Source of the DNA: Pseudomonas frederiksbergensis
GTDB taxonomy: Bacteria > Pseudomonadota > Gammaproteobacteria > Pseudomonadales > Pseudomonadaceae
Length of the DNA: 64,000 bases
NCBI RefSeq assembly: GCF_900105495.1
Contig: NZ_FNTF01000002.1
Coordinates: 3,588,501-3,652,500 of the forward strand
Direction of reading: 5' to 3'
Shown: positions 53,647 to 55,753 of the stretch, in pieces
How the letters are laid out: the number at the start of each line of letters is the position of its first letter
Position numbering within the stretch: the stretch's first letter is position 1
The notes under the pieces: generated by a model
Database searches by the model: none
The model's input: only the letters and a program-made list of their open reading frames with translations
Told to the model about the DNA's origin: nothing
Position numbers and translations under genes: made by a program

Positions 53647-54345
53647 TTACAGTTCCTGACCCAAAAAGATCAACGTATTGCCATGGGCCTCTGCCGCTGC
53701 GCGTTGGTTGTAGCTGTCGCGATGCGAGCAGTTGAAGCCATGTTCGGCCTCTGGGTACACGACAATTTCGACGTTATCGTTGTTCTCGAAACGTTCGGCG
53801 ATCTTTTCCACGGCTTCCAGTGGGATATGGCTGTCCTGTTCGCCGAAGTGCATCAGCAGCGGCACTTCGATTTCATCGGCGCGGTCCAGCTGATTCTGGA
53901 TTCCGCCGCCGTAATAGGCGATGGCCACGTCCACCAGCCCATTGGCGGCGGTGTGGTACGAGAGCAAACCGCCGAAGCAGTAACCAATCGAGGCGATCCC
54001 ACCGTCCAGCCCCGGTTGGGCTTTCAAGGCGTCGATGGCCAGTTCGATGTCGGTCTGTGCCTTGCCGACGTCGGTGGCGTTCATCAACTCGACGGCGCGT
54101 TTCCAGCCGGCCTCGTCGTAACCCAGTTCGATACGGTGGCCGTTGCGCCAGAACAGGTCCGGTGCAATCACCAGGTAACCGTCGGCAGCGTATTGTTCAG
54201 CGACCGAGCGGATGTGTTCATTCACGCCAAAGATTTCCTGGATCAGCACGATCCCCGGGCCTTTGCGGGTATGCGGAATGGCCAGGTAAGCGCCGAATTT
54301 GCCGTCAGCGCTGTCGATCTCGATCCATTGGGTGGTCACGCTCAT
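53647..54345 (-). CDS. dienelactone hydrolase family protein
   Basis: 232 residues; Cys123 in GYCFGG is the nucleophile, Glu36 in IQEIFGVN and later Asp and His (EQDSHIP, EAEHGF) complete the site. Standard DLH length. No ring-cleavage genes are nearby, so the true substrate is open. It lies 126 bp behind the DoxX-type gene on the same strand. Confidence 0.88.
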   Translation of the reverse strand: MSVTTQWIEIDSADGKFGAYLAIPHTRKGPGIVLIQEIFGVNEHIRSVAEQYAADGYLVIAPDLFWRNGHRIELGYDEAGWKRAVELMNATDVGKAQTDIELAIDALKAQPGLDGGIASIGYCFGGLLSYHTAANGLVDVAIAYYGGGIQNQLDRADEIEVPLLMHFGEQDSHIPLEAVEKIAERFENNDNVEIVVYPEAEHGFNCSHRDSYNQRAAAEAHGNTLIFLGQEL

Positions 54346-54471: not shown

Positions 54472-54987
54472 TCAACGCTTGTCGCGACGCCAGAAGACTC
54501 GAGCCAGCAGCGCATCGAGGCTGAGCTTGCCGGCACCCGAGAGCAACAGCGGCATAAAGGCCGCGAGATAGATCAGCGGCAGTTTGAAGTTGCCGTGACC
54601 TTTGTTGCTGATGGCATAACCCTGAGCAAGCTCACTCAATGTAGACCAATCGGCTGGCCAGTGAACGGCGGCGGTCGCGACGACCGTGACCACGATCAAA
54701 ATCAACGCCGAGATCCGGGTTCCCAGGCCGACCAGTATGGCCAGGGCACAGATCAGTTCAGCCCACATCGACAGTTCCCAGTTCAGCGTGGCTGGCACGC
54801 GGTTGAAGGGGAACGGGAAGTTGTCCTGAATATCGGCGAACCAGTTTTCGCCATTGAATTTTTCCAGGCCTGATTCGAAGAACTCCCAGGCGAGGAATAC
54901 CCGCAGGGTCAGTGGCGCGATCCAGCTACCGACGCAGTCGAGCTTCAGATGCAAGCCTTTTACGGCCGACGAGAGTGAGGTGGTCAT
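54472..54987 (-). CDS. DoxX-family membrane protein, HvfX-like
   Basis: 171 residues with four membrane segments ([74 protein letters not shown]) in the DoxX order. The 72-residue EGKCG-repeat protein gene lies 54 bp upstream on the same strand. DoxX proteins in this setting are called HvfX in copper-binding RiPP loci. The precursor-modifying HvfB (DUF692) and HvfC (DUF2063) are absent from the whole window. Confidence 0.78.
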
Positions 54988-55041
54988 GGAGATCTCCGTT
55001 CAGTCAGGGAGGAGGGGCACCGCGGTGCCCCACGCAAAAGG

Positions 55042-55260
55042 TTACTTGCTGGCGCCGCACTTGCCTTCGCCGCATTTGCCTTCGCCACATTTACCTTCCG
55101 CCGGTTTTTCTGCCGAGTCGGCCTGGGCCTGGCTATAGCCGTGGGTCAGTTGTTTCATGCTGAACGCCTCGGACTCAGAGGCTGAAGCCGCGTTGGACAG
55201 GGCCAGGCCACCAGCGATGATCAGGCCGAGGGTCAAGGAAGAAGTCGAGAGTTTGAACAT
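55042..55260 (-). CDS. HvfA-like RiPP metallophore precursor with EGKCG repeats
   Basis: 72 residues: a signal peptide MFKLSTSSLTLGLIIAGGLA and onward to ASA, a linker, then EGKCG three times at residues 55-59, 60-64 and 65-69, ending ASK. In HvfA-type peptides the Cys of each EGKCG is changed to an oxazolone/thioamide that binds copper. GGAG sits 8 bases before the ATG. It leads a two-gene unit with the DoxX/HvfX-like gene. Without local HvfB/C, modification must come from elsewhere, or the peptide works unmodified. Confidence 0.8.
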   Translation of the reverse strand: MFKLSTSSLTLGLIIAGGLALSNAASASESEAFSMKQLTHGYSQAQADSAEKPAEGKCGEGKCGEGKCGASK

Positions 55261-55448
55261 GGTGATACTCCGTAGCATTGAGTGAGTTGAACGCTTTGAT
55301 TGGCGCGGCCAATCGACGGGCACAGTTCATCAAGCAGGTGTATCTGCGATGTGTCTTTGGCGAGGGGTTTTAGGGGCGGGGTGTGTCGGCAGGGGCGCTG
55401 TACACACTGTGATACGTAACCCTGAAATTTCTCGGCCAACCCGAAATC

Positions 55449-55632
55449 CTGTAGCAGCTGTCGAGCCTGCGCTCAGCTCTGTAGCAGCTGTCGAGCCCTA
55501 GCGAGGCTGCGTTCGGCTGCGAAGCAGCCGTAAACCCAGTGCACGCGATTAACCTGGACTACCGAGCCGCTGGATTTCACGACTGCTTCGCAGCCGAACG
55601 CAGCCTCGCTAGGGCTCGACAGCTGCTACAGG
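55449..55632. repeat. compound long inverted repeat, TAGCAGCTGTCGAGCC class
   Basis: Two left arms in tandem (TGTAGCAGCTGTCGAGCC at about 5450 and again at 55481) face one right arm GGCTCGACAGCTGCTACAGG; the inner stem GGCTGCGTTCGGCTGCGAAG is shared with other copies. This makes up most of the gap 55261-55753. Confidence 0.85.
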
Positions 55633-55753
55633 GGTAGTGTTTCAGTCGTGCAGATATCGCATGCTCCTGCAGGAAACTGTGATCCAGCACTGACCAGTGG
55701 CGTCTAGCGTCTGTGTCCCCGCGATCCCATGGGGCGAGACTTCGGAACCCTGC

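Follow-up and report, generated by a model that had tools for sequence, protein, structure and literature searches.

The peptide gene A and its DoxX neighbour in Pseudomonas frederiksbergensis are probably the HvfA and HvfX parts of a dispersed, intact oxazolin/captophorin (thiooxazole metallophore) pathway in which the peptide, to judge from sequence comparison, would be matured in trans. With somewhat less assurance, we lean towards an arrangement in which one HvfB-HvfC pair lacking a precursor of its own acts in trans on two clients, the HvfX-paired peptide and an EfhP-like protein, with nothing but a common leader motif and a BfmR-type promoter box to tie the parts together, and with the whole being stable in most of one Pseudomonas clade. 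We infer modification in trans from features observed here, namely the parts themselves and their membership of all four Hvf families, their co-occurrence across genomes, their linkage in relatives, an L..GY leader motif and a shared promoter element.

An HvfA-HvfX pair in the window

The window, which is the whole stretch of 64,000 nucleotides that was analysed (C2:3588501-3652500, from a 6.39-Mb genome given as 100% complete), carries on its minus strand an ATG-started reading frame for a 72-residue peptide, A (55042-55260), which is of the export type and has exactly three EGKCG repeats, as the earlier note had described. Residues 1-27 (55180..55260, minus strand) form a probable Sec signal peptide, assigned by eye from a hydrophobic stretch with ASA at its end. 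The leader motif LTHGY (L..GY; residues 38-42, 55135..55149, minus strand) and the three tandem EGKCG units (residues 55-69, 55054..55098, minus strand) follow. The HvfA-like label held up, with a score of 27.7 bits against the HvfA family model of NCBIfam (NF050137, cut-off 19.5). Against the narrower HvfA equivalog model NF050188, A stayed under the cut-off (18.2 versus 95 bits), as did the precursor of an operon-linked relative (20.7 bits versus 95). Next to A, after a spacing of 54 bp, lies the expected DoxX/HvfX-like gene (54472-54987, minus strand), whose 171-residue product passed both NF050144 (HvfX family, 147.8 bits, cut-off 80) and Pfam DoxX (80.2 bits, cut-off 23.6). The dienelactone hydrolase gene beyond it (53647-54345, minus strand) was also correctly called, being confirmed by Pfam DLH, and is not a constant neighbour. 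It is absent from the 11-kb stretch in 5 of 16 relatives' A-DoxX loci (L086-L090), for which reason we rejected it as a substitute enzyme.

The median dN/dS was 0.183 for A (120 pairs; the window and 15 relatives, 16 loci) and 0.12 for the DoxX gene (107 computable pairs from the same 16 loci); together with the passed NF050137 cut-off, these values argue that A and DoxX are more than chance reading frames. Among the 17 genomes with an A-DoxX pair, the reading frame of A is complete in 16. The genome G058 (L091) was excluded from the dN/dS set; A there is without the signal-peptide segment and retains L..GY and two EGKCG repeats. Three repeats are unusual, since 18 of the 20 named relatives having A beside DoxX have two and only 2 have three. 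By its DoxX gene the nearest named relative in a single scan was P. frederiksbergensis AS1 (98%), where the A adjoining DoxX also has three. Between A and a glutaminase-like gene, at window positions 55470-55640, short blocks such as CAGCTGCTACAG and GCAGCCTCGCTAGG were seen by eye to be repeated in both orientations, and we presume their likeness to the short palindromic repeats frequent in Pseudomonas.

An HvfB-HvfC pair 1.03 Mb away

That HvfB and HvfC are missing, as first proposed, is true of the locus, where neither the window reading frames nor genome-wide family searches placed a DUF692 or DUF2063 gene between or next to A and DoxX, but not of the genome. There we found two DUF692 genes, along with two matches of the DUF2063 type, of which one is below the Pfam cut-off. 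One HvfB-HvfC pair, locus C (C2:4669.8-4670.9 kb; L004:7320-8925), lies 1.03 Mb from A. Its HvfB scored 419.7 bits against NF003818 (cut-off 360) and its HvfC 263.7 bits against NF050145 (cut-off 142). The HvfB aligned over residues 16-278, in two pieces, to the DUF692 structure 3BWW (E 2.6e-81), and the HvfC gave a weak alignment with 3DEE (E 3.3e-4). No EGKCG precursor was found beside the pair in its 16-kb stretch. The genome search that had been recommended also uncovered a second EGKCG precursor, an EfhP-like protein with two repeats and EF-hands (C2:61 kb), which by eye stands after an NADH dehydrogenase-like gene; weaker matches to EGKCG precursors (E 0.03 to 5.5) were inspected in part. 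The MNIO and PME1 partner genes are therefore present in the genome of A though not in its cluster, clustering being usual and not universal. Two alternatives had been offered, enzymes acting from another locus or a reduced, possibly different metal-handling system; comparative sequence evidence points to the former, and the presence of HvfA, HvfB, HvfC and HvfX families in one genome does not support the latter.

The second DUF692 gene belongs to a separate complete MNIO cluster identified by family models, locus B (C2:4589 kb; L003:3709-7104), which encodes a metallo-beta-lactamase-superfamily (Lactamase_B_2-type) protein, a 106-residue cysteine precursor, an MNIO, a partner protein and an HvfX-family DoxX protein. 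Both the MNIO (311.8 versus 360 bits) and the partner (62.7 versus 142 bits) stay under the HvfB and HvfC cut-offs. The precursor has neither EGKCG nor L..GY and is possibly of the published CxxxxC type, which often has a Lactamase_B_2-type protein. The earlier note had also reckoned with an HvfB/HvfC pair elsewhere that has an HvfA of its own. The HvfB-family pair has none beside it, and it is the other DUF692 gene that has its own, different precursor. As a separate observation, HvfB and HvfC of locus C are nearest to those of G131 (93% and 88%), which lacks the A-DoxX pair, and A and DoxX are nearest to genomes other than G131; exchange of the HvfBC pair between members of the genus may lie behind this.

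Co-occurrence across the genus

A and the locus C HvfB served as queries (E up to 0.001 each) against 199 genomes of the genus; we excluded matches that end before residue 61 of A (the only kind in G044 and G059) and delimited the HvfB clade at E 1e-90, the next match being at 2.9e-71. An EGKCG precursor and an HvfB of this clade occurred together in 83 genomes, the precursor alone in 1 (G183), HvfB alone in 1 (G148) and neither in 114, counts that do not amount to independent trials, as the genomes and loci share ancestry; the Fisher value for these counts is likewise not to be taken as a probability. The miss in G148 is a matter of search sensitivity, since a four-repeat precursor stands beside its HvfB. 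G183 is a real exception: its genome, in one contig, carries an EF-hand precursor and a DoxX ortholog and no HvfB of the locus C clade. An MNIO match of any kind was present in 165 of the 199 genomes; 81 had only MNIO matches from outside the HvfB clade, and just 1 of these, again G183, had an EGKCG precursor.

Conservation of the peptide-DoxX pair, which had been questioned at the outset, is partial. It was found in 17 of the 199 genomes, all 17 with the locus C-type HvfB, which in 3 of them (G129, G156 and G159) is the sole MNIO match. A DoxX ortholog is present in 70 genomes (71 matches minus that of G044, at 35% identity), 69 of which have the locus C-type HvfB and 17 of which have A beside DoxX. 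A second EGKCG match occurs in 17 of 17 pair-bearing genomes and is an EF-hand precursor in the two inspected, so that retention of HvfBC is explicable by this match alone.

Gene neighbourhoods in relatives

The surroundings of HvfB were compared for 82 copies from 80 of the 84 clade genomes, two of which have a second copy (G057, G072, G177 and G187 were left out). In a quick maximum-likelihood HvfB tree, 46 of the 82 copies have EGKCG within 3 kb and 36 have none, with 2 changes of state. The unlinked copies lie inside one clade of 38 (SH-aLRT 99), within which G053 and G100 are linked, each having a precursor of 67-68 residues without EF-hands directly upstream of HvfB-HvfC. The deep branch has the layout precursor-HvfB-HvfC-DoxX in one direction; both precursor and DoxX were called in 12 of its 13 tree rows, and L155, the remaining row, lacks a called precursor although EGKCG is nearby in the tree data. 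The middle branches have precursor-HvfB-HvfC. Nine loci (L126, L127, L131, L138, L141, L145, L146, L147 and L160) carry a response regulator, a histidine kinase, a ferric-reductase-like gene and DoxX facing HvfC-HvfB-HvfA, an order that matches PA4101-PA4107 of P. aeruginosa as reported in the available portions of the published accounts (PMC4148453, PMC8025907, PMC4053335); by this order, PA4104 would be the DoxX gene. L120 and L121 have the same facing layout minus the regulator, L092 has it minus the ferric-reductase-like gene, L122 has the same genes in a different order, and in many other middle-branch loci DoxX or the regulator is outside the 9-kb stretch. The DoxX proteins of relatives' precursor-HvfB-HvfC clusters are 60-78% identical to that of the window.

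Within the unlinked clade, the regulator pair is often still opposite HvfC (e.g. L106-L111), and DoxX is elsewhere, commonly near glutaminase-like and aldehyde-dehydrogenase-like genes (named by eye), standing with the ferric-reductase-like gene, with A, or with neither; the ferric-reductase-like gene is beside DoxX in 4 of 20 loci without A (L184-L186 and L190). We classified 80 named DoxX loci: 20 have A next to DoxX, 14 have the ferric-reductase-like gene and no A, 43 have neither, 3 are at a contig edge and none has both. The idea of the A-DoxX pair as a universal unit was rejected on the same count of 20 in 80. In the genome of the window itself, a search run without a positive control (E up to 0.001) did not find the ferric-reductase-like gene. 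As A and this gene are never together in those 80 loci and the search found no copy here, A may have replaced it beside DoxX. A DoxX tree, weakly supported, requires 4 changes to account for where A is present.

A shared leader motif and promoter box

All 65 distinct EGKCG precursors encoded at the loci examined carry a motif of the form [LM]..GY no more than 40 residues ahead of their first repeat, whether they are linked or unlinked to HvfB and whether or not they have EF-hands. The available text on Haemophilus influenzae reports that HvfBC favour the peptide carrying its signal sequence (PMC13419390), and a common leader would thus be a requirement for one enzyme pair with several clients. 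HvfC may be the protein that recognises L..GY; the precursors are related by descent, and something else may have kept the motif conserved.

Alignment of the 260 bp upstream of A in 16 loci brought out a TGTATC-N4-TGTGTA direct repeat and GACACA/GATACA half-sites. In the window the BfmR-type direct repeat upstream of A reads CGTATCACAGTGTGTA (55401..55416, minus strand), with one mismatch to TGTATC-N4-TGTGTM, and half-sites kept in the alignment of the 16 upstream regions lie between the box and the start of A (55339..55355, minus strand). One box (at most one mismatch) is upstream of A in 16 of 16 relatives' pair loci (L076-L091), 15 of which are the set from which the motif was derived. In the window there was 1 match versus 0.17 expected, and at least one match appeared in 16 of 100 shuffles. 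For other genes we scanned 300 bp upstream with TGTATC-N4-TGTRTM, in which one position was relaxed following the first scan, again allowing one mismatch. Of 36 unlinked loci, 33 have the box ahead of HvfB, and it precedes the EF-hand precursor in 4 of 4 loci (none exact), compared with 3.4% of 4000 random 300-bp control windows of the same loci. At locus B, the first pattern had no match in the 12-kb stretch even when two mismatches were allowed. An acetamidase/formamidase-family gene upstream of the locus C HvfBC (L004:9069-10403) has a BfmR-type box of its own in 15 of the 16 loci where the gene was found, and may belong to the same regulon.

The portions available of the P. aeruginosa studies give the BfmR sites as GATACAnnGC (footprints) and TACAA-N3-GATACA (ChIP-seq), and the top three BfmR regions as efhP-PA4106-PA4105, PA4103-PA4104 and bfmRS (PMC4148453, PMC8025907). 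Our box agrees with these sites in its half-site and 10-bp period, and a GATACA-type direct repeat is present in the promoters of the scattered parts. We infer on these grounds that BfmR control operates in this species. The candidate BfmR-type regulator-kinase pair (C2:4906.7-4908.7 kb) has two boxes upstream. Its regulator shares 94.7% and its kinase 86% identity with the corresponding proteins next to HvfBC in L107, and in relatives such a pair stands in the PA4101-PA4107 order. The copper two-component system DsbRS was considered as the regulator and dropped when the BfmR motif fitted. A literature search by title and abstract for TGTATC with Pseudomonas response regulators returned nothing relevant.

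A second regulator of the same type lies at C2:3506.4-3507.2 kb (L284:7507-8214), and no match to a kinase was found in its 16-kb stretch. It is followed by two small exported-looking, cysteine-free peptides (L284:8412-9152) with an N-terminus like that of A, ahead of which stands a box (L284:8352).

A model for maturation in trans

In the model that we propose, a BfmR-type regulator would activate the A-HvfX genes, the HvfB-HvfC pair and the EfhP-like EGKCG/EF-hand precursor via their shared boxes. HvfC would bind the leader of A (signal peptide and L..GY) in the cytoplasm, HvfB together with HvfC would oxidise the EGKCG cysteines to 5-thiooxazoles, and Sec would export the modified peptide to the periplasm, where it would buffer a soft metal that is probably copper. 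HvfX, called uncharacterised in the available text on H. influenzae (PMC13419390), would contribute a further step at the inner membrane. The chemistry proposed is that of the 5-thiooxazoles reported as the product of hvfABC and fonABC in E. coli (PMC13097082), and copper is carried over by analogy from oxazolin/captophorin relatives, for which the accessible reports describe copper binding (PMC13097082, PMC13419390). A broader part in envelope stress is also conceivable, given the BfmR link and the EF-hand client.

Against maturation in trans we count the exception G183, the A of G058, the second EGKCG match in 17 of 17 pair-bearing genomes, the presence of A in only 17 of the 70 genomes with a DoxX ortholog, and the missed NF050188 cut-off. 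In a rival account, HvfBC serves the EF-hand (EfhP-like) precursor only, and A is exported unmodified to work alongside DoxX as a simple thiol peptide with a metal-binding or redox function. The ubiquitous second EGKCG match, of the EF-hand type where inspected, speaks for that account, as does the fact that A is unlinked to HvfBC in all 17 pair-bearing genomes. We nevertheless regard it as unlikely, given that A shares the EGKCG core and the L..GY leader with linked precursors, that the linked client in G053 and G100 is the short form without EF-hands, and that the promoters of A and of HvfBC carry the same type of box.

It is very improbable that A is modified by the MNIO of locus B instead. 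An MNIO, a partner protein and an HvfX-family DoxX protein are all available there, but the locus has its own precursor with neither EGKCG nor L..GY, both enzymes fall short of the HvfB and HvfC models, the box is lacking, and the three pair-bearing genomes whose only MNIO match is in the HvfB clade have no such alternative. We give equally little credence to A-HvfX being a decaying, functionless remnant. The loss of the signal peptide in G058 and the lack of A beside DoxX in 36 other inspected loci (20 + 16) would suit a remnant; the low dN/dS of both genes, the intact frame in all but one pair-bearing genome and the conserved promoter element do not.

Relation to known systems

Earlier publications already cover the precursor family and its enzymes, the class of product and the existence of orphan precursors; the dispersed regulon is new. 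Oxazolin of H. influenzae (HvfABCX) likewise has an exported EGKCG precursor, an HvfB-type MNIO, an HvfC-type partner and a DoxX-like HvfX, but its hvfABCX genes form one operon according to the available text (PMC13419390), whereas HvfA-HvfX and HvfB-HvfC are 1.03 Mb apart here, and its HvfA has six modifiable cysteines, compared with three in A. The captophorins, including fontiphorin (FonABC), are 5-thiooxazole peptides that share with A the EGKCG repeats and with its genome an MNIO and a PME1 partner (PMC13097082); FonA has seven sites and clustered genes, in contrast to the three sites and dispersed genes found here. The portion of that report available describes modification by FonBC of a two-repeat and not of a single-repeat substrate (PMC13097082); A has three and most relatives have two.

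The BfmRS-controlled efhP-PA4106-PA4105 and PA4103-PA4104 genes of P. aeruginosa resemble the present set in the EF-hand EGKCG precursor, DUF692, DUF2063 and regulator pair, as far as the available accounts describe them (PMC4148453, PMC8025907, PMC4053335). That system is contiguous and includes a ferric-reductase-like gene, whereas here the parts are dispersed, that gene has no match, and the short EF-hand-free precursor beside DoxX is extra. Among the matches listed in a search that left most subscription journals outside, we found no paper that by name links BfmR to the Hvf-type/MNIO class of RiPPs.

Orphan Buf_EGKCG precursors are, like A, not next to an MNIO gene. The accessible part of the survey counts Buf_EGKCG in 2583 genomes, 67 without an MNIO gene, names both modification from another locus and no modification, and leaves modification in trans open (PMC12452194). 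In that part no partner locus, shared regulator or leader motif is assigned to them (PMC12452194), whereas there are candidates for all three here. The present genome is thus a concrete test case in which the precursor, the enzyme pair far from it and a further client can be named, together with a candidate leader motif and a regulator that is predicted; it suggests that gene-cluster mining misses the clients of precursor-less HvfBC pairs. EfhP, which has been studied as a calcium sensor, may itself carry thiooxazoles. Its homolog in P. fluorescens Pf0-1 was described in 2014 as being without DUF692 or DUF2063 neighbours, like the EF-hand precursor here; the available portion of that description proposes no partner in trans (PMC4053335), and we propose HvfBC.
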